Assembly (NCBI RefSeq): GCF_035917335.1
Contig: NZ_CP109067.1
Span: 3,905,001 to 3,969,000 of the forward strand
Length of the DNA stretch: 64,000 nt
DNA from: Micromonospora sp. NBC_01813
Lineage (GTDB): Bacteria; Actinomycetota; Actinomycetes; Mycobacteriales; Micromonosporaceae
Direction: 5' to 3'
The notes under the pieces were generated by a model. It did not search any database. It worked only from the letters and a program-made list of their open reading frames with translations, and was not told the DNA's origin. Of the stretch, positions 29,701 to 42,135 are shown one piece after another. The position numbers and the translations under genes are program-made. Each line of letters begins with the position of its first letter. Positions within the stretch are counted from its first letter, which is position 1.

Positions 29701-31466
29701 TCGCCGGGCCGGAGCGGACCGTGCTGGCGGTGGCCCGACCGTACCTGGGTCGGATCGTCGGCGCAGGGCTGCTCGCCGCGGCCACCGAGCTCGCGGCGCT
29801 GGCGTTGATGGCGACCGCGGTGTGGCTGCTGATCACCGCCGCCGGCCGGCCCCCGCTGGACGCGATCACCGTGGCGATCGTCGGGGTACGCGCGCTGGCG
29901 ATCAGCCGGGGCGTGCTGCGCTACACCGAACGACTCGCCGGACACGACGCGACGCTGCGCGTCGTCACCGACGTACGGTCCCGGATCTTCACCGCGCTGG
30001 CCGCCCGACGGACCAGCGCCGAGGACCGCTCCGGGGACGCGCTCAGCCGGCTCGTCTCTGATGTGGAAGCCGTACAGGACCTGCTGTTGAGGGTCCTGGT
30101 GCCCGGTGCCGCCGCGGCCACGGTGGCGGTGCTCGCCGTGACCTCGGCCGCGACGGTCGATCCGGCGGCTGCGCTCGCACTCGCCTGCGGCCTGGCGGTC
30201 GCCGGTTGCGGGCTGCCGGTGGCCGCGACGCTGCTCACCCGACGTACGGCGGACCGGGTGGCGCCGCTGCGGGGCGCGCTGGCCGCGGAGAGCACCGATC
30301 TGATCTACGGTGCCGCCGACCTGGCTGCCTTCGGTGCCACCTCGTCCGCCCTGGAGCGCACCACCCGACGGGCGCGGGAGCTGGCGAGGCTGGAGCGACG
30401 CCTGGCCGCGACCGGTTGGGCCGTCGACGGTGCCGGCGTACTCGTCGCCGGCCTCACCGTGGCCGCCGTCACGGTGGCGGCGTCGCGCGGTGCGGTGGAC
30501 GGGGTACTGGTCGGCGTCCTGGCTGTCGGAAGTCTGGCCGCCGTCGAGATGAGCCTGGCGCTGGTCGCCTCGGCCCGCCAGTGGGCGCTGTCGCGCGGTG
30601 CCCTGCGGCGGGTCGCCGATCTGCTCACCGAGGCGGCGTCCGATCCGGCCGCCGCCCTGCCTGAACCTGTCGCCGGTGGATCCGATCCTGTTGCCGAGCG
30701 GCCTGAGCCGGTGCTGGCCGAGCTCGAGGGTGTCACCGTGCGATACCGCCCGGGCGCTCCACCGGCACTCGACCGGCTCGGCTGGCTGCTGCCGCCCGGC
30801 CGGCGCGTCGCGGTCGTCGGACCCAGCGGCGCCGGCAAGAGCACCCTGCTCGCCGTGCTCACCGGCGCGCTCGCCCCGGATCTCGGCCGGGTCACGGTCG
30901 ACGGCGCCGACCTCGCCGACCTGCCGGCCGAGCGACGGCACCGGTTGGTCGGTGGGCTGTTCGCCGAGGCGTACGTGTTCAACGCCACAGTTCGCGACAA
31001 CCTGCTGCTGGCCCGGCCCACCGCGACCGACGACGACCTGGCCGTCGCCGCTGCCACCGCCGGACTGCTCGACTGGGTACGCGAACAGCCCGACGGTTGG
31101 CAGACGTCGGTCGGCGCCACCGGCAGCCAGTTGTCCGGCGGGCAGCGGCAACGACTCGCCCTGGCCAGGGCATTGCTGGCCGACCCGGCGGTGCTGGTCC
31201 TCGACGAGCCGACCGAAGGGCTCGACCCGGCCAGTGCGGACGCGGTCCTGGCGACCGTGCTGGCGGCGACCGGGGGCCGGACCGTGGTGGTGGTCACCCA
31301 CCGGCTGACCGGGTTGGAATCGATGGATGAGATCCTGGTACTGGACGCGGGCCGGATCGTGCAGCGGGGCGACCATGCCGAACTGATCGAACGGCCTGGT
31401 TGGTATCAGGAACAGTGGATCATGCAGCGGGCCGCCGAACAGGGCTACCTGACGGCGATCAGCTGA
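29697..31466 (+). CDS. cydC: Thiol reductant ABC exporter subunit CydC
   Basis: 589 residues. The membrane domain is about 10-310, with the region AISRGVLRYTERLAGHDATLRVV typical of CydC. The ATPase domain is about 340-580, with Walker A GPSGAGKST near 375, signature LSGGQRQRLALARALL near 480 and Walker B VLVLDEP. It starts at GTG 29697 inside the last codons of cydD (GTGA overlap), a strong sign of stoichiometric translation. It forms the CydDC heterodimer. After its stop at 31466 I see no clear terminator. Confidence 0.9.
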   Translation: MIAGPERTVLAVARPYLGRIVGAGLLAAATELAALALMATAVWLLITAAGRPPLDAITVAIVGVRALAISRGVLRYTERLAGHDATLRVVTDVRSRIFTALAARRTSAEDRSGDALSRLVSDVEAVQDLLLRVLVPGAAAATVAVLAVTSAATVDPAAALALACGLAVAGCGLPVAATLLTRRTADRVAPLRGALAAESTDLIYGAADLAAFGATSSALERTTRRARELARLERRLAATGWAVDGAGVLVAGLTVAAVTVAASRGAVDGVLVGVLAVGSLAAVEMSLALVASARQWALSRGALRRVADLLTEAASDPAAALPEPVAGGSDPVAERPEPVLAELEGVTVRYRPGAPPALDRLGWLLPPGRRVAVVGPSGAGKSTLLAVLTGALAPDLGRVTVDGADLADLPAERRHRLVGGLFAEAYVFNATVRDNLLLARPTATDDDLAVAAATAGLLDWVREQPDGWQTSVGATGSQLSGGQRQRLALARALLADPAVLVLDEPTEGLDPASADAVLATVLAATGGRTVVVVTHRLTGLESMDEILVLDAGRIVQRGDHAELIERPGWYQEQWIMQRAAEQGYLTAIS

Positions 31467-31582
31467 CGCGTAGCGGGGTGCGGGCAACCCATCCGGCGGG
31501 CGGCCCATTAGGGTGTGCGCAGAGTCACCCACCCGACAGTCCGGGTTCGGGCGCCGTCACCGGAAGACAAACGGAGGTCAGC

Positions 31583-32554
31583 GTGGCCAAGTCGCCGAAC
31601 CAGCCCGATGCCGACCGGCTCGCAGCCGAGTCCGTCGATACCGAGGCCGACAGTGACTTCGAGTCAGCGGCGGACGACGCGCTCGATCCAGTCGAGGACG
31701 GCACCGATTCCGGTACGGCGGCCGCCGCCGACCGGTCGCTGTGGCAGGACGTACGGATCGATCCGGTGGAGATCGCGTTGCCGGCCGGCGCCGGGTACAC
31801 CCTGCGGGCCTACCGCCCGGCCGCCACGCTGACCCCGACCGACATCTCCGAACGTGAGGAGGAGGACCCGTTCGCGGCACGGCGACGGGTCGCCGAAGCC
31901 GAAGCCGAGGAGGACGACGAGACGGTTGTCATCCTCGACGAGGAGTTCACCTCGGCGTTGGCGGAAGAAGAGGCAGCCGAGCAGGAACGCGCCGATCAGG
32001 ACAAAACCGGCAAGGGGTCGGCCGACGAGGACGACGCTGACGACCAGGCCGAGGAGGCCGACGCTGGCGAGGAGGTGCCGATCTTCCTCACCCAGCAGGG
32101 CAGGCTGCTGCTGTTCAAGAACCCGGAGGCACTGGTCAGCTTCGTCCGGTCCGGCGCGCCGAACGACTTCACCCAGCTCGACACCTGGCCGGAGTTGGTC
32201 GACCGGGTCCAGCCGGCGGACGTCGATGCCCTGCCGGAGGACACCTACGAGCTCGACCTGGTGGTCGAGAACCTGCGTGGCGGGCACGACGTGTGGGACG
32301 CCCCGCTGTTGATCCAGTCCGGCGAGGTGGCCCGGGACCTGGCGTACGCTCTGCGGATGCCGTCGGTCCTCGACATGCTCTCGTCCGGATCCAGGCTGGA
32401 CGATCTCGACGAGGCGCTAAGGTCGACGGTTGACGGCGGCATCGGCGGGTTCATGGCCCGCCGACGGCTGAAGAAAATCGGGGCACAAACCGCAAGTCTC
32501 GGGTGGCGCACGATTATCGGCAAGATCTCTGCCGCTGCGGACTGGCGCGATTGA
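31583..32554 (+). CDS. Acidic actinobacterial protein of unknown function
   Basis: 323 residues. Residues 1-170 are highly acidic and low in complexity, broken by one ordered patch (LWQDVRIDPVEIALPAGAGYTLRAYRP). The C-terminal 150 residues are folded: PIFLTQQGRLLLFKNPEALVSFVRSGAPNDFTQL, then YELDLVVENLRGGHDVWDAPLLIQSGEVARDLAYAL, and a basic end (RRRLKKIGAQ). GTG at 31583 follows an ACGGAGG site. Homologues are sometimes labelled 'primosomal protein' in actinobacteria, without proof. It precedes the conservon-linked gene by 61 bases. Confidence 0.68.
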   Translation: MAKSPNQPDADRLAAESVDTEADSDFESAADDALDPVEDGTDSGTAAAADRSLWQDVRIDPVEIALPAGAGYTLRAYRPAATLTPTDISEREEEDPFAARRRVAEAEAEEDDETVVILDEEFTSALAEEEAAEQERADQDKTGKGSADEDDADDQAEEADAGEEVPIFLTQQGRLLLFKNPEALVSFVRSGAPNDFTQLDTWPELVDRVQPADVDALPEDTYELDLVVENLRGGHDVWDAPLLIQSGEVARDLAYALRMPSVLDMLSSGSRLDDLDEALRSTVDGGIGGFMARRRLKKIGAQTASLGWRTIIGKISAAADWRD

Positions 32555-32615
32555 CCCCTAACCAGGGAGCATCAGTCCTTGGCACATGGCAGGTGTCCGG
32601 GAGGAGGACGACGCG

Positions 32616-35189
32616 GTGGCGCTCGTGCGGGTGTACTGCGGTCTGGCATCGGCGGACCGGTCAGTCCGGTCGGCTACGGCTGGTCCGGCCCTGGCCGCCG
32701 CGATAGTCGACGACGCCGGCCGGCTTCTCGACGTCTGTGAGGTCGGCGACGACCCGGCGGGCTACGCCCGGCTGAGCGCGACGCTCGTCCAACGGGCGAG
32801 CGGCCCGAGCGGTGCGGCGATTGCCGCCGACAGTGACGACTACCTGGTCACTTCACTACTCACCGCCGCCGGACGCCCGCTGGCCGTCGCCGACGACGAC
32901 GCCGCGGACGACTACTCCGAACGCTTCGCCGACGACGAGTCGATGGAGGAGATGTCCGCCCCGCAGGCCCAACGGCGGGCGGTGGGTCTGGCCCGGGCAC
33001 TGCAGGCCGGGGCGATCTCAGCCGCGTCCCTGCCGGTGTCCCGCGATCTGCTCGCGTTCCAGCCGGTGCTGGCCGCGCACGCCGCGCTCGCCAACGGCCG
33101 TCAGGCGGCGGCGGTCGCTCTGCGGGAAGTGCTGCGTGAGCTGTATCCGGCCGCGCTGCGCGCCTACCCCGACCCAGCCGAGCCGGTGGCGCTGGCCGTG
33201 CTCGACGCATTGCCCGAGCCGGGCATGCTCAGCGGTACCAGTTCCCGCAACCGCGAGCTCTCCGTCGCTGCCGACGCCGTCGCCGCGCACCTCGCCTCCG
33301 ACGGTGTCGCCGATGCCGAGACCATCGACGCGGCCGTCACCGCGTTGCGGGTCGCGATTGTCGAATCACCCCGCCGTACCGCCGTCAACCAGGCCCTCAC
33401 CTCGGCGACCGCCGAGACCGTCCGACATGCCGTCGCCGCGGTACGGGCCTGCGACGCCGCCGCTGACGCCCTGATCGCCACATTGGCGGCCCGGGTCACC
33501 GACCCCATCCCGATCGGCGCCCGCCGCACCGTACGCCGGGCCGCCGAGCCGGTGTCGGGTGGTCCGTTGTCCAGCCTGCACGCCGTGCCGCCGCCCGGTG
33601 AGAACGCGCCCGGTCGGACCCCTTCCGGTGGCCGCCGGGCCCGGCCGCAGCCAGTCGGCGGGGTCGCCTCGCTGCCCCTGCCGATGACGGCACCTCCGGT
33701 CGCTCCGGCACCGGTCGGGCCGCCACCAAGCGCGCCGGCTCCGCTGACGCCGCTGGCTCCGGTCGCCCGCCGAGCGGCCGACCCGGGAAGCAACCGACCG
33801 GTCTCCGCTCCGCCGCCGCCGCCGGGGATGACACCGATGTCAGGGCAACGTCCCGCTCTCGCGCCGGCCGACGCCGGTGAGCCCTTCCGGGCCACACTCA
33901 CCACCGCCGCGATCAACGACGCACGCGCGCAGCGGCGACCGACCCCGATCACGCCGCGGCCGAACACCCGTGGGGCTGGCGCACCACCGCCCTCCGGTGC
34001 TCCGATGTCCGCGCCGCCCGCCGGGCTCACCCCGGTCTCCGGCACGCCGGTGTCGGCGAATCCGATCTCCAGCGCGCCCATCTCCAGCTCCCCGATGTCG
34101 GGAGCTCCGCTGTCCGGTATCCCGGCTTCCGGTCCGCCGCAGCCCGGATCGCCGTTGGCCGAGCCGCCGACCGGTGGTTTCGCCGCCACCGACTACAGCC
34201 TGCCGGTTCCCACGCCGCGCCCTGGGCCGCTGCCGCCGGCGCGGGCCGGTTCCCGCTCCAACTGGCCGCTGGTCGGCCAGTCCGACGATGCTGGCAGGAG
34301 CGGTGGGTCCGACCCGTCCTACCCGCAGGTCGACGAATCCCGTGGCGGCATGACCGGCGGCTTCACGGCCGGCAACGGCTCGCCCGGTGGCTTCGCACCC
34401 AACGGCAACGGCTCGCCCGGTGGCTTCGCGCCCAACGGGATCGGGCCTGGCGGCGGCCTGCCCAGCCGGTTCCCAGACGAGAGCTCTGCCAGCAGCACCC
34501 ACTCTGGTCGGGTGAAGCCGCCATGGCTCGCGGACGACCTTCCGCCGGAGCCGCCGATGCTGCGACTGGTGGAGCAAACGCCGGCCGAGCGGGCCCAGGA
34601 AGAGTTCAACCGGTCGGCAACCACGCCGTTGGACGGTCTGCCGCTGCGTCTGGTGGACGAGTCGGCACCGGGCTACGGCCGGGAGCCAAGCCGGGAGCCG
34701 AGCCGTGGCCGGCGCGCCGCTGTCGAGCCGTTGAGCGCACCGCCGGTGTCCGACGAGGGCGACGGCGACCTGTTGATCTTCGCAGCGGCCCGTTCGGCTT
34801 GGTTCGTCCGGCACCCCGACGAAGGGGACGGCGTGGACTTCTCCACGCCGATGGACACCGGCTGGCGTGCCGCCGAGCAGGCGGCAAGGCCGGCGATCGG
34901 GTCCGAGACTCGGGCAGGTCTACCCAAACGGGTTCCGCAGGCGAATCTGGTGCCTGGGGCCCCGCTACGGGACGAACGTCCGCTGCGAATTGTGCGGGAC
35001 GCGGCGAGCATCGCGGAGCACACCAACGGCTACTTCCGTGGCTGGCGACGTGGCCAGGAGATCGGTGGGTACGCGGTCGGTGGCCGGCCCGGGCGGGAGG
35101 CAGCCGGTGGCTGGGACTTCAGCCGGGACCAGAGCGGCCAGGGCGAGGGACAGGAATTCGAGTACCGGCCTGCCGGCCACCGTTCCTGA
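32616..35189 (+). CDS. Conservon-linked protein: IS110-like N-domain, Pro-rich middle, CvnA-like tail
   Basis: 857 residues. Residues about 1-110 (VRVYCGLASADRSV, AAIVDDAGRLL, AAIAADSDDYLVTSLLTAAGRPLAVADDDAADDYSERF as separate segments) follow the order of the RuvC-like N-domain of IS110 transposases, including the Y-x-E-R-F end, but the expected acidic catalytic residues are mostly replaced. Residues about 110-310 are helical. About 320-700 is Pro/Ser/Gly-rich and disordered. The tail (about 745-830) shares GWRAA...[15 protein letters not shown] with CvnA next door. GTG at 32616 is preferred to ATG at 32586 because GGGAGGAGG lies 8 bases before it. It is probably not an active transposase; a role beside the conservon is inferred. 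Confidence 0.72.
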   Translation: MALVRVYCGLASADRSVRSATAGPALAAAIVDDAGRLLDVCEVGDDPAGYARLSATLVQRASGPSGAAIAADSDDYLVTSLLTAAGRPLAVADDDAADDYSERFADDESMEEMSAPQAQRRAVGLARALQAGAISAASLPVSRDLLAFQPVLAAHAALANGRQAAAVALREVLRELYPAALRAYPDPAEPVALAVLDALPEPGMLSGTSSRNRELSVAADAVAAHLASDGVADAETIDAAVTALRVAIVESPRRTAVNQALTSATAETVRHAVAAVRACDAAADALIATLAARVTDPIPIGARRTVRRAAEPVSGGPLSSLHAVPPPGENAPGRTPSGGRRARPQPVGGVASLPLPMTAPPVAPAPVGPPPSAPAPLTPLAPVARRAADPGSNRPVSAPPPPPGMTPMSGQRPALAPADAGEPFRATLTTAAINDARAQRRPTPITPRPNTRGAGAPPPSGAPMSAPPAGLTPVSGTPVSANPISSAPISSSPMSGAPLSGIPASGPPQPGSPLAEPPTGGFAATDYSLPVPTPRPGPLPPARAGSRSNWPLVGQSDDAGRSGGSDPSYPQVDESRGGMTGGFTAGNGSPGGFAPNGNGSPGGFAPNGIGPGGGLPSRFPDESSASSTHSGRVKPPWLADDLPPEPPMLRLVEQTPAERAQEEFNRSATTPLDGLPLRLVDESAPGYGREPSREPSRGRRAAVEPLSAPPVSDEGDGDLLIFAAARSAWFVRHPDEGDGVDFSTPMDTGWRAAEQAARPAIGSETRAGLPKRVPQANLVPGAPLRDERPLRIVRDAASIAEHTNGYFRGWRRGQEIGGYAVGGRPGREAAGGWDFSRDQSGQGEGQEFEYRPAGHRS
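34371..34436 (+). repeat. 33-base in-frame tandem duplication
   Basis: Two copies (34371-34403 and 34404-34436) differing by one base encode a repeated Gly/Ser/Asn-rich 11-residue unit inside the disordered part of the conservon-linked protein. Confidence 0.7.
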
Positions 35190-35325: not shown

Positions 35326-35385
35326 AGTCGGGCAGCACTGTTGGCGGCACCTGCATGCAGGTGCCGCCAACAGTGCTGCCCGACT
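35326..35385. terminator. 60-base perfect palindrome, likely bidirectional terminator
   Basis: Two 30-base arms (35326-35355 and 35356-35385) are exact reverse complements with no spacer. The element ends 13 bases before the stop of cvnD on the minus strand, so it could end that transcript and the convergent one. Its length and perfection far exceed what termination needs. Confidence 0.7.
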
Positions 35386-35397
35386 ACCTGTGGTCGG

Positions 35398-36006
35398 TCA
35401 GGCAGGTGCTACAGCACGCTGACGACGCATGGTGAGTACGTACTCGACCAGCGAAATCAGCACATGCTTCGTCGACTCGCGGTTACGCGCGTCGCACGGC
35501 ACCACAGGGACGTCACTGGAGATCGCCAAGGCGTCTCGGACGTCCTGCGGGTCGTGGTGTTGCATACCGTCGAAGCAGTTGATCGCCACCAGGTACGGCA
35601 GCCGACGATGTTCGAAGAAGTCGATCGCCGCGAAGCAGTCGGCAAGTCGACGAGTGTCGACGAGCACGACAGCGCCGATCGCTCCCCGTACCAGTTCGTC
35701 CCACATGAACCAGAATCGAGTCTGGCCCGGCGTGCCGAACAGATAAAGGATGAGGTCTCGGTCGATCGAGATCCGTCCGAAGTCCATGGCGACCGTCGTG
35801 GTCGTCTTGCCCGGCACCTGTCGCGTGTCATCCACGCCCACACCAGCCGAGGTCATGATCGCCTCGGTGGTGAGCGGCGTGATCTCCGAGACCGAGCCGA
35901 CCAGCGTCGTCTTGCCGACGCCGAACCCACCGGCGATGACAATCTTCGCCGATGTCACTCGCCCGGCCATGGGGCGGTGCGCCATGTCAGAGCCTGCGAA
36001 GTCCAC
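35398..36006 (-). CDS. cvnD: Conservon GTPase CvnD
   Basis: 202 residues, a small Ras/MglA-like GTPase. The P-loop GGFGVGKTT lies near residues 26-34; TTVAMDFGRI gives the switch I region, LFGTPGQTRFWFMWDEL the G3/switch II, and VAINCFDG the G4-like position. GTG at 36006 keeps the MDF start usual for this family and overlaps the DUF742 gene by 20 bases; ATG at 35985 is possible. With CvnA, B and C it forms a membrane-linked, G-protein-like signalling set known from Streptomyces, which affects development and antibiotic production. Confidence 0.9.
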   Translation of the reverse strand: MDFAGSDMAHRPMAGRVTSAKIVIAGGFGVGKTTLVGSVSEITPLTTEAIMTSAGVGVDDTRQVPGKTTTTVAMDFGRISIDRDLILYLFGTPGQTRFWFMWDELVRGAIGAVVLVDTRRLADCFAAIDFFEHRRLPYLVAINCFDGMQHHDPQDVRDALAISSDVPVVPCDARNRESTKHVLISLVEYVLTMRRQRAVAPA

Positions 36007-36364
36007 TCAGCACCCTCTCCAGCAGTTCCGTGCCCACCGCGTCGTTCGTGTCGTCCAGGGATGTCGGCTCGTACACCGCGACCAGGCCGTCTGAGGCCAT
36101 GTCCGCGATGAGGACCCGGGCTACTCCGAGTGGGAGCTGCATCCGCGCCGCGATCTCCGCGAGCGACTGCAGCCGGCCGTCACACAGCGCGGCAATGTAT
36201 TGGTGCTCCCGGCCCGTGCCGCCCTTCGCAGAGCCTGCGGACCGGCCACGTACCGTCGTTTCCACGAGCGCTTCGAGGGCGATTTCCAGCTTTGGCCGGG
36301 TACGACCGCGGGTAACGGCGTACGGCCTGACCAACGCGCCGGTTGGCTCATCGCGCTCGGTCAT
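35987..36364 (-). CDS. cvnC: DUF742 protein CvnC
   Basis: 125 residues. A winged-helix-like DUF742 domain: LVRPYAVTRGRTRP at the start, then AALCDGRLQSLAEIAARMQLPLGVARVLIADMASDGLVAVYEP. This is the third gene of the conservon order A-B-C-D. It starts at ATG 36364 and lies 117 bases after the roadblock gene, a wider gap than the overlaps elsewhere in the set, with no clear terminator in it. In studied conservons CvnC contacts the other partners rather than DNA. Confidence 0.9.
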   Translation of the reverse strand: MTERDEPTGALVRPYAVTRGRTRPKLEIALEALVETTVRGRSAGSAKGGTGREHQYIAALCDGRLQSLAEIAARMQLPLGVARVLIADMASDGLVAVYEPTSLDDTNDAVGTELLERVLSGLRRL

Positions 36365-36481: not shown

Positions 36482-36886
36482 TCAGCCCAACATTCCAGCG
36501 GCGGTACGGGGTGCTGGCGTCAGCGCCTCACCGACGCGGTCGACCAGCAACGCCATTTCGTACCCGACCTGGCCGACGTCACAGCTGCGGGCGGCCAGCA
36601 CCGCGAACGACGAACCGTCCGAGATCGACATGAGGAAGAGGAATCCGTTGTCCATCTCGACCACCGTCTGCAGCACGGCCCCGCCCTCGAAGCAGCGGGC
36701 TGCTCCCTGGGTGAGGCTGACCAGGCCGGAGGCGATGGCCGCGAGCTGGTCGGCCCGGTCCCGGGGAAGATCCCGGGACGAAGCCAGGAGCAGACCGTCC
36801 GCCGAGACCGCGATCGCGTGGGCGACCCCCGGGACGCGGTCGGCGAAGTTGGCCAGCAACCAACCGAGATCCTGCGTAGTTGTCAT
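36482..36886 (-). CDS. cvnB: Roadblock/LC7 protein CvnB
   Basis: 134 residues of the roadblock/LC7 fold, which serves as partner or activator for small GTPases such as MglA. Typical segments: [31 protein letters not shown], then [34 protein letters not shown] at 36886 overlaps the cvnA stop (ATGA), so it is translated with the kinase. It likely links the sensor kinase to the GTPase CvnD. Confidence 0.92.
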
Positions 36887-39800
36887 CCCTCATGCTCCTT
36901 GCCAGCCTGCGAGGATTGCTGCCCTCCCGGGGTCGCCCCCGGGTTGGTCGAGTGGTCGTCCTTGGGCTGTGTACGGCCGCGTTTCACACCACGGTGGTAC
37001 GCGGACAATAGCCCACGGACCGCTTCCGGTGAACGACGCTGCACCGAAGTTGTGGCCTTCTCTACGCCACCAGGTACGAGCTGTGCCATCGGAACCCGCT
37101 TCGGGAGACCCGCTTGGGTCTTCTCCTCCGCCGTCACCTCAGCCGCCGCGCTCGCCGCGCGCCAGCCGTCGTCTGCGGCCGTCTGCCAACTGCCAGACCG
37201 GCCAGCGCCCTCGGCACCGCCGCCAGTGGGTCGCGAGGTCGCCGCCGCCGGCTCGGGCCGCCGAGGCAGCGACGTTCCGGCACCGCCACCGCTGGCGGCG
37301 GCTGGAGTCCTCGGCGTCGACACCGGGGTGGGCGCGGGCGCCGGCACCGGCGTCGCCGGTCGCGCAGTCTCCACCTTGGCGATGGGTTGGGTGGTCGCGG
37401 TCGACGTCGCGCCGCTGGTCGGCTTGATCATCGCTGCGGCTGCCGCCCGCGCCTCTTCAGCAGTGGGGCGACGGGTCCGGAACCACGCCGACTCCAACTC
37501 GCGGAAGATCGGGAGTTCCATTGTCTCGTCGGCGAACTGCTTCGGACCGGCGTTGCTTGGCTTCACCACCGGATGCGGCGCGGTGACCGAGTTGTCAGCC
37601 GCCGACCGGGTGACCCTGGGCAGCTCCGCCGTCATGTCCAACGCAGCCGCGAGCTTCTCCGGCACCGGCGGGGTGACCGCGTCCCGGTCGGAGGCGACCG
37701 GGGGCCACGCTGGCGGAGCGGACCGCGGCGGGGCTGCCGGCGGTTGGTGCGCCGGAGCCGGCTGCTGCGGTTGCTGCGGTGGTGGAGTTTGCTGCGGCTG
37801 CTGCTGCGGCCGGGGGAAGGCCGCCGACGACTGGAAGGCCGTGGGCTGCTGTTGCTGGTATCCAGCCTGCTGGCGGCTGGGTGCCGGTGGCACCGGCGGA
37901 GCCGAGAACGGCCGTACCGGTGGCGCGGAGACCGGCGGAATGTACGGCTGCCCGCTCACCGGCTGCTGATGCAGCGGCGCGTGGGTCTCCGGCGACGCCG
38001 GCATCTGGCGCGGGACACCACTGGTCGGAGCGGTTCCGGTGACCTCGCCGTCGACCGTCCAATGGTCGTTCGAGCGACGCTGCGGCAGTGGATCGGTGCG
38101 CTGCCCGTTGGTTGGCAGCTGGTTGAACACGTCCGAACCGTTGCTGCCGTTCGCCACGCCGTTGGTGCCGTTCGCCGCACCGGTCAGGTCGGACCAGGCC
38201 GGCATCTGGCGGGCCGGCGGTGCCTGCGACGCTGGGCCGCCACCGTTGATCGGCGCCGGTTCGAAGGGGCGCGGTGGCGGGCCGACCGGTGCCGGTGGCT
38301 CAGCCGGCGGGCCGCCGAACGGGCCGCCTGCGTTGCCGCCGCCTTCGAGGGCGAGTGGAGTGGGGAACGGCTGGCGGCCGGCCCCACCGGGAGCGTCCGT
38401 ACCGCCGGAGCCGTAGGCCGCCGGGCCGGTGTTGCGGCCGGCGAGGGCCCGGGGGATCAGCACCGGGGTCGGCAGTGTCACGTCGGCGATGGTGCCGCGA
38501 TCGGCGGCCGGACGCAGCTCGACCTTGACCCCGTGCCGGGTCGCCAACCGGGCGACCACGACGAGGCCCATCATCCGGGACACCGCGACGTCGACCATCG
38601 GCGGGTTGGCGAGCCGTTCGTTGAGATCGCGCAACTGATCGGCGCTGACGCCGATGCCGCGGTCCTCCACATAGAGCACGGCACGGTCGCCGACCCGGCG
38701 GGCCTCGACCATCACCTGCGAGTCTGGCGGGGAGAAGGCCGTCGCGTTGTCGAACAGCTCGGCGACGAGGTGCACGAGGTCGTTGACCGCGTGCGCGGAG
38801 ACCTCGATGTCCCGGTCGACGATGCCGAACTCGATCCGGGTGTAGTGCTCGACCTCGGACTGCGCGGCACGCAGCACGTCGATCAACGCGGCGGGCTCGC
38901 GCTGGACCCGGGTGGAGTCCGCACCGGCGAGAACCAGCAGGTTCTCGTCGTTGCGCCGCATTCGGGTCGCGAGGTGGTCCAGCTGGAAGAGCTCGCTGAG
39001 CCGGTCCGGGTCCTCCTCGCCGCGTTCCAGCCGGTCCAGGTGACCGATCAACCGGTCGACCAGGATCTGCGACCGACGGGCGAGGTTGACGAACATCGTC
39101 GACACGGAGGAACGCAGTGCGGCCTGCTCGGCGGCGGTCTTGACCGCCTCCAGGTGAACGGCGTTGAACGCCTCGGTCACCTGGCCGAACTCGTCCTTGC
39201 TCCGCACCGGCAGCGGTTCGGCGATCTGGTTGGCCAGCTGCATCGGCGAGGTGTGTGCGGTGACCTGTGGGTCCCGCAGCCGGGCGACGGCCTGCGGCAG
39301 TCCGAACTGGGCGACCGCCAGCGCACCCTGGCGCAGCTCCCGCAGCGAGCGGGCCATCGACCGGGCGACCAGAGCGGCGAAGAGAATCGCCAGCAGCAGC
39401 ACGATCAGCAGCAGGATCGTCTCGACCAGGAGTTGCTGCTGCACCTCGTCGCGCAGGATCGTGGCCTCGTTGACCACGTCACTGTCGATCTTCTGCTCGA
39501 CGGTGCGGATCAGGTCGGCGTGACCGATCAGCGCAGCGTCCCAGGCGTCGGAGCCGAACGGCGTGTTGGCCATCGACTCTTCGCTCTGGCCACGGATGAA
39601 GCCGCCGTAGGTGTCGGCCTCACGCAGCGCCGGGCCGGCCACCGTCTGGTTGTAGAACTCCAGGTCGTCCTGGGTCGCGGCGGCCTCGAAGCTCTGCCGC
39701 GACTGGGACTGACCGGCCCGGGTGCTGATGTAGTCGGTGCGCAGCGAGGGAGTCAGCGCGTTCTGGCTGAACGCACGCAGCACCACGATTCGTTCCCGGG

Positions 39801-40443
39801 AGAGGAACTCCTTGTTGCGGGCCAGCGACGCGCCGGCGCGCATGTGGTCGCTCAGCTGGGTGTCGCTGGCCAGCTGGGCGGCCGAGTCACGGATGTCGAG
39901 CAGGTCACTGAGCAGGACCTCGTACGCGCGGGCGGCCTCGGTGAGCCGGAAGTTGCCGTCGGCGGTGGCGCTGTTGACCACCTGGCTGCGTACGCCGGGC
40001 AGGTCGGCGAGGTTCTGATCGATCCGGGAAAGCAGGTTGCGGAAGTTGACCGGCAGGTCGGTCAGCTCGGCGCGGCGCTGTGAGTACGGCGCACGCGAAC
40101 TCTCGACCGTGCCGTGCAGCGTGTTGTAGGCATCCAGATAGCGCTGCTTGGCCTCGGCGTTCTCGGTGCCCAGCAGCAGCACCGCCGCGGCCCGTTCGTT
40201 CTGCAGGTCGTGCACCAGGTCGCCGGAGGCCGCGGTCAAAGTCGACAGCGTGCGGGCCTGGGCCGCGTTGTCAGCGGTCTCCAAGTGCCCGATGAGACCA
40301 TTGGTGCCGACCACGATCGTCGCCAGAGTCGGAACGATCATAATCAGACCGAGCTTGGACCAGATCGGCAGATCGTTGAGCCGGCCAACCGGCCGGCGGA
40401 GACGCGACAGGAAGGAGTCTGCCGTCTTCGGCCGCTTGCTCAC
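36883..40443 (-). CDS. cvnA: Conservon sensor histidine kinase CvnA with nitrate/nitrite-sensing domain
   Basis: 1186 residues. A first membrane helix about 31-50; an outer NIT-type helical domain about 55-330; a second helix about 337-360; a HAMP-like linker; a histidine-containing helix ([16 protein letters not shown], His near 490); an HATPase domain about 555-660 with [12 protein letters not shown] (N box) and EDRGIG (G1). Residues about 690-1190 are Pro/Gln/Gly-rich and disordered, ending with a tail holding [16 protein letters not shown] near 1110. GTG at 40443 follows GGAGGG. Whether the NIT domain binds nitrate is not shown. The tail motif recurs in the neighbouring convergent protein. 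Confidence 0.9.
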
Positions 40444-40960
40444 GTCACCGCCCTCCTCGTCGGTGCCGGCTGGACGCACCGGGCACCGCCCATCGGCCGA
40501 CCCGGGGCGGATCGGACCCCCGAGATTCCATCACGATGCCACCCAAAGAGAAAGCCCAGGTGGTCTGTCACAGCGAGTGTGACGCGATGGTTATCGGGAC
40601 TTGCACCGAATTGCACTGATGCGACCACGCTCAGTAATCATTCCTGTCCGTCTTGCCCGCTTCGAGAGCAACGGCGCTCTCAGAGTGCGACGTGTCATCT
40701 TACGCTCATGGGCCCGCGCCGCCGCCACTGACGGGACGTGCCAGATTTGCGGCGTCCGTAACAATCCTGCGGCCGACCGACCCCCGTGCGATCGCCCAAA
40801 AGGGCCATGGCGGATCGCCCGAAGGGGAACCCTCGCACCCGGGCGCCGGGCCCGGGACAACGGAACCCGCCCCGGGAGCCGGGCCGGGGACAACGAGACC
40901 CGGTCCCCGGACCCCGTTCCACGACTCAGGCGCGGGCACCCGCCCGGCCGCCGCGCGCCG
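40444..40960. other. Gap upstream of cvnA holding a 34-base repeat
   Basis: 517 bases with no supported gene. The part nearest cvnA is AT-richer and should carry its promoter. The right half is a GC-rich stretch with the repeat at 40844-40911, next to the end of the adenosine deaminase gene. Confidence 0.5.
40844..40911. repeat. Imperfect 34-base tandem duplication
   Basis: Units 40844-40877 and 40878-40911 share GCCGGGCC(C/G)GGGACAACG and differ at several later positions. They lie between cvnA and the adenosine deaminase gene. Confidence 0.6.
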
Positions 40961-42040
40961 TCAGACGATCAGCTTCGCGTACGCCGGTTTGATCACATCG
41001 TCGATGATCGCCAACCGTTCGTCGAACGGGATGAACGCGCTCTTCATCGCGTTGACCGTCAACCACCGCAACTCAGCCCACCCCCACCCGAACGCCTCCA
41101 CCAACAACCACATCTCCCGAGACATCGACGTACCACTCATCAACCGGTTGTCCGTGTTCACCGTCACCCGGAACCGCAGATCACGCAACAACCCGATCGG
41201 ATGCTCACCCACCGACCCCACCGCACCCGTCTGCACATTCGACGACGGACACAACTCCAACGGAATCCGCTTGTCCCGCACATACGACGCCAACCGCCCC
41301 AACCGCACCCCACCACCACCCACCTCGAGATCATCCACGATCCGCACCCCATGCCCCAACCGATCCGCCCCACACCACTGAATCGCCTGCCAGATCGACG
41401 GCAACCCAAAAGCCTCACCCGCATGAATCGTGAAATGAAAATTCTCCCGCTGCAGATACTCGAAAGCATCCAGATGACGAGTCGGCGGAAAACCAGCCTC
41501 CGCACCCGCGATATCGAACCCCACCACCCCCGCATCCCGATACCGCACCGCCAACTCCGCGATCTCCTGCGACCGCGCCGCATGCCGCATCGCCGTCAAC
41601 AACGTCCCCACCCGGATCACCCGACCCGCCCGCGCCGCCTCAGCCGCCCCGGCAGCGAACCCGGCCACCACCGCCTCCACCACCTGACCCAACCCCAACC
41701 CCCGCGACAGATGCTGCTCCGGCGCGAACCGCACCTCCGCGTACACCACCCCGTCCGCCGCCAGATCCACCGCACACTCCGCCGCCACCCGGAACAACCC
41801 CGCCTCCGTCTGCATCACCGCCACCGTGTGCGCAAACGTCTCCAGATAACGCTCCAACGACCCCGAATCCGCCGCCGACACGAACCACCGACCCAACTCG
41901 TCCGGATCCGTCACCGGCAGAACATGCCCCACCTCCGCCGCCAACTCCACCACCGTCGCCGGACGCAACCCACCATCCAGATGGTCATGCAACAACGCCT
42001 TCGGCGCCCGAACGATCTCCGCCAACGAAATAGCCACCAT
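40961..42040 (-). CDS. add: Adenosine deaminase
   Basis: 359 residues of the amidohydrolase (beta/alpha)8 fold. Zinc ligands His18 and His20 in [16 protein letters not shown] with the catalytic Glu region; [20 protein letters not shown] and VNTDNR for the late Asp. It turns adenosine into inosine and ammonia in purine salvage. ATG at 42040 is chosen over the start at 42064; no ribosome site precedes it and a TACTAC box lies 9 bases upstream, so the mRNA may be leaderless. Codon use is odd: TTG for Leu, GTG, GGG and CGG or T-ending codons dominate, unlike neighbouring genes. It stands apart from the nucleoside operon but serves the same pathway. Confidence 0.92.
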
Positions 42041-42135
42041 AGGTGGAGGGTAGTAGGGCCACACCGGCCGATCCGGACGGGCTCGGCGGTCGGGCGGGGC
42101 GGCCGGTGCCCCGACCGACGGGCCGGGGCGGCAGG

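Follow-up and report, generated by a model that had tools for sequence, protein, structure and literature searches.

A degenerate IS110-like half and a CvnA-type tail in a conservon-linked protein of Micromonosporaceae

What does a transposase-like protein do next to a signalling operon? The question is raised by a gene, here called X, in a stretch of 64,000 nucleotides from Micromonospora sp. NBC_01813 (contig NZ_CP109067.1, positions 3,905,001 to 3,969,000; the whole stretch is referred to as the window). X faces a conservon, an actinobacterial G-protein system encoded by cvnABCD, and a first-pass annotation had proposed that it is a transposase fold taken over for a cellular function. Our answer is that X is probably the domesticated, dead half of an IS110 transposase, which stands in for CvnA in the conservon as a soluble protein without a kinase part.

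The annotated open reading frame (ORF) of X is real. Its GTG start codon at 32616 lies 8 nt past the ribosome-binding site GGAGGAGG, and the matches of relatives to X mostly start at the identical residue, which supports this start. The positions of all features are given in Table 1.

Origin and active site of the N-terminal half

The N-terminal half of X was compared with IS110 proteins by profile alignment. A match to this half was present at 181 loci (true IS110 loci included), 169 of which passed the filters, and 50 X rows remained at <90% identity. These rows aligned with five IS110 ORFs (~420 aa) in hhalign at 99.4% (E 1.7e-21) over 262 columns, from residue 3 to 295 of X and from residue 11 to 275 of the IS110 ORF at locus L180. 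Thirty column shuffles gave at most 0.8% and one reversed profile gave 0.1%; a chance likeness of alanine-rich profiles was ruled out by these controls. The profile of the five IS110 ORFs matched IS621 (PDB 8wt6) with E 1.7e-21. The IS110 layout had been proposed for the first 110 residues only: the homology itself stands (hhalign and Pfam PF01548), and the length was set too short, as it reaches residue 295. The Y-x-E-R-F landmark aligns as proposed (DDYSERF in X, ARYRERF in IS110).

In the window X, PF01548 was found with the N-terminal half alone (E 0.11) and not with the full-length protein. When the 50 X orthologs were scanned singly, 22 matched PF01548 (E ≤ 0.1; best 3e-7), and no other Pfam family matched more than two of them. 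As PF01548 is the sole family to do so, X-like genes are open to misannotation as transposases. The homology to IS110 halts where the catalytic-serine (Tnp) domain would start. This domain (PF02371) was absent from the three full-length X proteins scanned (window, L164 and L176), and two IS110 control ORFs had both PF02371 and PF01548.

The AlphaFold2 models of X (residues 1–310) and of an IS110 control had predicted local distance difference test values of 85.3 and 86.7. The order of the 16 main strands and helices was identical in both, with two four-residue X helices (16–19 and 110–113) omitted from the comparison. The fold of X ends past the long helix that precedes the Tnp domain in IS110. 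A fold search was dropped as proof of IS110 kinship, as Foldseek was not significant for X although the control works: the IS110 model finds IS621 (~1e-11), along with several Nop5 entries that X also matched. The weak matches of the X model were RNase H-like or Nop5-like (Spt6, Nop5, integrase and RNase H). Either X has diverged beyond the reach of Foldseek or its model is imperfect. Searching PDB sequences with the X profile gave nothing useful (best E 0.8). The kinship was therefore rested on the profiles and the order of secondary-structure elements; the fold match expected earlier was obtained by sequence profile and by the 16 co-ordered elements, and not by direct Foldseek search. At the level of these profiles, it is established that residues 1–295 of X derive from the IS110 transposase half made up of the RuvC and helical parts.

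It is very improbable that an RNase H-like domain of other origin (Spt6/YqgF, Nop5 or RuvC proper) came to resemble IS110 by convergence. Spt6 does provide the top Foldseek matches of the X model, with no IS110 structure among the best 50 listed. However, the 262-column IS110 match is collinear and extends beyond the RuvC fold to take in the LR.L.E.YPAAL.A..D region, and families competing with PF01548 reach at most two of the 50 rows, against its 22.

The active site was read from the joint X/IS110 alignment. At D1, Asp was found in 0/50 X rows (A, T, V or S in 50/50), with Asp in four of the five IS110 rows and a gap in L188. D3 was Asp in 1/50 and Glu in 2/50 rows, and D4 was Asp in 2/50. 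The catalytic Glu column contained Asp in 45/50 and Glu in 1/50. The acidic catalytic residues had been described as replaced, which holds for three of the four (D1, D3 and D4); the Glu position is conservatively changed to Asp. In IS621, recombination is reported to be abolished by mutating D11, E60, D102, D105 or S241 (PMC11208158). By all signs in the alignment, X is catalytically dead as a nuclease.

The N-terminal half of X is mostly acidic. Its net charge had a median of −15 (range: −23 to +2), its lysine count a median of one and its isoelectric point (pI) a median of 4.6 (range: 4.5–8.5), compared with a pI of 6.0–11.1 in 25 IS110 ORFs, of which two are identical. These values speak against X as a DNA/RNA-binding regulator, in which the IS110 half would retain nucleic-acid binding (e.g. 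of a bridge-like RNA) and the CvnA tail would couple binding to the conservon. X also lacks the Tnp domain, which is reported to recognise conserved bridge-RNA bases (PMC11208158), the gap between X and the upstream gene up1 is just 61 bp and all Rfam matches near X are below their gathering scores. We consider such a regulator unlikely, though RNA binding is known for IS110 and its Nop/Tas relatives, and a RuvC domain of IS621 contacts the bridge RNA stem-loop (PMC11208158, PMC12045711). Further points in its favour are the weak matches of the X model to Nop5-type proteins, the acidic residue kept at the catalytic Glu position (D72 in the window) and the less acidic X rows at the upper end of the pI range.

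The CvnA-type tail, occurrence and selection

As claimed earlier, the IS110 part of X is followed by a proline-rich stretch: the linker comprises 417 residues (22% Pro), and its length differs among orthologs. The C-terminal tail was aligned with CvnA tails in hhalign (28 X rows and 19 CvnA rows, the latter including one out-of-frame row, L045), which gave 98.6% (E 1.2e-15) over 80 columns. An additional motif upstream is found in the same order in both (LLIF....SAWF in X, LPIFRE.ESAWF in CvnA). In its own genome, a CvnA-tail profile (E ≤ 0.01) found three places, among them X at E 9.2e-9. The remaining two were the facing cvnA and the gene of an 1100-aa NIT-HAMP-HATPase protein, with a roadblock match after it. 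Both the profile alignment and the own-genome search bear out the CvnA-like tail noted in the first-pass annotation, and on this comparison the homology of the last ~145 residues of X to the C-terminal tail of CvnA is firmly established. An X-tail profile found four places in the same genome (E ≤ 1e-5). The three or four places with a CvnA-type tail compare with eleven roadblock and six DUF742 matches.

NIT, HAMP and HATPase were not found in X by Pfam and were present in the CvnA controls. No hydrophobic membrane segment was detected in X by hydropathy, unlike in CvnA. The GLP[RK]R motif was present in 124 of 132 complete X ORFs, a set that includes some genomes drawn twice from two collections. 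Of the other eight, six were Salinispora proteins with the rest of the tail, and two were out of frame (L045 and L081). The reading frame of X is broken at these two loci, by either a sequencing error or a genuine loss.

The X-tail profile matched in 226 of 397 genomes of the order. Among the matches listed, all rows with E <1e-40 were from Micromonosporaceae. Next among them were Micromonosporaceae proteins in ~830-aa frames (E ~1e-23), and outside the family the best row was at 2.4e-23, in frames of ~990–1270 aa. Two of the ~830-aa proteins were checked (L267 and L269). Both are NIT-HAMP-HATPase kinases with tails likewise opening with LLIF (LLIFEQ...), and their tails look closer to the X tail than the facing CvnA tail does. 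This ~830-aa type of CvnA may be the donor of the X tail. Besides the facing CvnA, the check covered three tail-bearing proteins (these two and the 1100-aa protein of the own genome), a small part of all tail matches; all three are kinases, with no non-kinase protein among them, which makes X the odd one out in this set.

X was found in 347 of 354 Micromonosporaceae genomes and in 43 of 44 genera. The seven genomes without X were drafts of ~360 or more contigs; five of them were searched again at E ≤ 0.01, and still no X was found. Most of the genomes listed had one match, some two to six. The genome of the window has a single X match and no IS110 RuvC domain above the Pfam cut-off. In 200 genomes of the order, 37 had an X match, with an identity of 26–36% outside the family. 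Twelve of the weaker matches were fetched, nine from outside the family and three second matches in family genomes. Eleven of the twelve places (counting L180, the query) encode IS110-like ORFs or pieces, including the second matches in the family genomes G175, G077 and G112; L189 gave no match. Judged by this distribution, X is a core gene and not an insertion sequence (IS).

The ratio of non-synonymous to synonymous substitution rates (dN/dS) was calculated for nine pairs. It was 0.025–0.147 for the tail, 0.064–0.168 for the helical region, 0.138–0.274 for the RuvC part and 0.208–0.506 for the linker; the pairs come from within and near the genus and are not independent of one another, the tail is cut short by the end of some loci and dS reaches ~1. 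The helical region was below the RuvC part in all nine pairs. These ratios establish, for the pairs compared, that X is under purifying selection, strongest in the tail and the helical region, which fits the parts that a dimeric docking protein needs.

That X is a decaying IS110 insertion or a fusion artefact without function is hardly credible. A decaying IS would be expected to show a dN/dS near 1 and patchy presence. The degenerate active site, the variable linker length and the two broken frames would suit decay, but the near-universal presence, the conserved synteny (see the following section), the purifying selection and the lack of an IS110 RuvC domain above the cut-off elsewhere in the genome do not. 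At the sequence level, the initial proposal, that a transposase fold was taken over for a cellular function, is upheld by homology, catalytic loss, presence, synteny and a dN/dS well under 1.

Synteny, the paired roadblock gene and the proposed role

Synteny was surveyed in 97 loci, comprising 80 named contigs and 17 fetched stretches chosen mostly for divergence. All four cvn genes (cvnDCBA) face X in 62 of the 68 loci that reach at least 7 kb past the X start. The complete cvnABCD operon reported opposite X in the window was confirmed by this survey and by Pfam domains. Six loci have no facing cvnABCD (L165–L168, L172 and L177), and all six have a roadblock gene directly after X. Hence, the homologues are not randomly placed with respect to conservons. 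Upstream, up1 directly precedes X in 95 of 96 loci.

A roadblock gene on the same strand follows X in 15 of the 17 fetched loci and is 37–44% identical to cvnB. It was verified as PF03259 in three loci. In eight loci, a start codon of this gene shares four bases with the X stop, and two of these eight offer a further possible start downstream; in six more the gene begins within 31 bases of X, and in one ~120 bases on. No paired roadblock gene was found in the window or in any of the 51 long loci among L002–L081. The first-pass annotation, which had also under-called the length of the IS110 part, overlooked this gene, which we regard as the best clue to function.

In a tree rooted with IS110, X formed a single clade (100/100). 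The roadblock gene was present in 14/14 deep rows (labels assigned by hand) and absent in 19/19 scored rows of a crown clade of 36 rows (100/99; 17 rows unscored), which includes the window. The tree has long branches and a distant outgroup, which leaves both its root and the branching among deep rows uncertain. A single fusion plus a single loss is the simplest history that it suggests. As the deep branches pair X with roadblock in the manner of cvnA and cvnB, and the crown clade faces cvnDCBA, X appears to occupy the place of CvnA without its membrane, sensor or kinase parts. As a separate observation, crown-clade tails have a conserved extension, GGYAVGGRPGREAAGGWDFSRD (~35060–35130 in the window), which the deep rows lack; it co-occurs with the absence of a paired roadblock gene.

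In the literature, CvnA9 is reported to interact with CvnB9 and CvnC9 (PMC8510531), a CvnB homolog is a GTPase-activating protein (GAP) and a CvnC homolog is probably a guanine nucleotide exchange factor for the conservon GTPase (PMC13343842). IS621 dimerisation is described as mediated by a coiled coil (PMC11208158). If X is a CvnA stand-in, its helical region would dimerise it, by analogy with this coiled coil, and the linker would let both CvnA tails of the dimer extend outward. Each tail would dock on a roadblock dimer, its own one in the deep branches and the facing CvnB in the crown clade. X may thereby deliver a cytosolic input to the roadblock/CvnC/CvnD switch; alternatively, X and CvnA may compete for the roadblock GAP. 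The inactive RuvC domain would be a protein or ligand platform rather than a nuclease.

Several points weigh against this role. The lineage of the window has no paired roadblock gene, and the partner of X there is a guess among the eleven roadblock matches. CvnC could be the tail partner instead of roadblock. The six loci mentioned above have no conservon facing X, though each of these genomes has DUF742 genes elsewhere (in G327 ~14 kb away). Finally, the Foldseek search of the X model against the PDB gave no match at E ≤ 1e-3.

Two other readings were considered. A doubtful one is that the IS110 half replaced the entire sensor-kinase part of a CvnA in one ancestral fusion and became the input subunit of a Ras-like G-protein switch, and that the dead RuvC pocket, with an Asp conserved where the Glu used to be, still responds to a nucleotide or RNA and thereby controls the roadblock GAP via the tail. 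Rather unlikely is a mere decoy or competitor, which would titrate CvnB from CvnA (negative regulation) and have no sensory input of its own. A CvnA tail without a kinase, the facing cvnDCBA in most loci and the crown clade without its own roadblock gene are what a decoy would require; the deep branches, however, pair roadblock with X, and the six loci with X and roadblock but no facing cvnABCD point to a dedicated pair there.

The locus in the window and relation to known systems

Table 1. Features of the X locus, with positions in the window
Feature	Position	Strand	Basis
up1, acidic SatS-like protein, immediately upstream of X; start uncertain	31400..32554	+	
Ribosome-binding site of X, GGAGGAGG	32600..32607	+	sequence
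X, 857 aa: degenerate IS110 N-terminal half, Pro-rich linker and CvnA tail	32616..35189	+	
RuvC-like (RNase H-fold) domain of X, residues 1–135; of the DEDD residues, D1, D3 and D4 are lost and the Glu is replaced by Asp (D72)	32616..33020	+	
Helical region of X, residues 136–295, homologous to the IS110 region preceding the Tnp domain; presumed dimeriser	33021..33500	+	profile, models, lower dN/dS than RuvC part
Pro/Gly/Ala/Ser-rich linker of X, residues 296–712	33501..34751	+	
CvnA-type C-terminal tail of X, motifs LLIF..SAWF / DTGWRAA / GLPKRVPQANLVPG / RD..YFRGWRRG	34755..35186	+	
Perfect 60-bp palindrome between convergent X and cvnD, presumed two-way terminator	35326..35385	.	
cvnD, Ras-like GTPase of the facing conservon	35398..36006	-	
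cvnC, DUF742	35987..36364	-	
cvnB, roadblock; in the window the presumed partner of the X tail	36482..36886	-	
cvnA, NIT-HAMP-HATPase sensor kinase, tail of the same kind as X	36883..40479	-	

The 24-base half of the palindrome occurs only here in the genome (up to three mismatches allowed). Rfam gave ten matches near X at E ≤ 1, eight of them on the palindrome and one inside X. As all were under the gathering scores and most fell on the palindrome, a bridge-RNA remnant near X was rejected.

The product of up1 is related to the mycobacterial export chaperone SatS (NCBIfam NF050072 with E 3e-8, which is under the cut-off; PDB 6dnm with E 6.5e-6). The gene after cvnA (40961–42064) presumably encodes an adenosine deaminase-like protein, much as add lies near satS in M. 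tuberculosis.

In some relatives, X and cvnD are separated by a further gene on the strand of X. In the two loci tested it encodes a Peripla_BP_6 lipoprotein-like protein (L028, 10587–11810; L058, 10950–12155), and L070 has a similar gene, judged by eye. The window has none. A gap of 1.39–1.50 kb between X and cvnD was seen in 19 of the 62 loci. The Peripla_BP_6-like protein could be a ligand-binding input of the facing conservon.

X was compared with the known systems that it resembles. With IS110 and the bridge recombinase IS621, it shares the homologous RuvC-like domain and helical region; unlike them, it has no Tnp domain, has lost D1, D3 and D4, is mostly acidic and immobile and is fused to a signalling tail. 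Piv and MooV are IS110-related, host-serving DNA invertases that are catalytically active, whereas X lacks the catalytic residues. With CvnA, X shares the homologous tail with its co-ordered motifs and, in the deep branches, a roadblock gene that follows, mostly overlapping or within 31 bases. It differs in having the IS110 half instead of the NIT, HAMP and HATPase domains and the membrane segment. As judged from its domains, X is thus neither an IS110 transposase, whose active site and Tnp domain it lacks, nor a CvnA, whose kinase modules it lacks; its sequence suggests a protein that functions as a CvnA would, minus the kinase.

Accessory proteins beside conservons have precedents. CvnE (P450) and CvnF (GAF) are additional proteins that are thought to modulate the input, and they are reported to overwhelmingly accompany CvnA proteins without sensory domains (PMC13343842). 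X is likewise an additional protein beside a conservon, but the CvnA facing it has a NIT domain, and X has no P450 or GAF by Pfam. Nop5, which is weakly matched by the X fold, has an inactive RuvC domain that recruits fibrillarin (PMC12045711); it sets a precedent for retaining a RuvC-like domain without activity to recruit a protein. However, Nop5 and TIGR-Tas proteins retain an RNA-binding Nop domain; X does not reach that region and carries a CvnA tail instead.

In the open-access literature searched, no paper joined IS110 and conservons, and none of the titles listed describes an X-like protein. The input role of CvnA proteins and their partners in conservons is described as largely unexplored (PMC13343842). 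X reduces this input problem: the tail and, in the deep branches, the link to roadblock are kept, and kinase, sensor and membrane parts are dropped. If the X tail binds roadblock, the coupling element of the conservon would be found, and it could be tested on a short construct. The broken IS110 half, the kinase-type tail, the pairing with roadblock in the early branches and the near-universal presence in the family genomes examined suggest that a dead transposase took the place of the CvnA kinase in Ras-like signalling. If this is true, a relic of an RNA-guided recombinase would have been made a signalling subunit and fixed across an actinomycete family.

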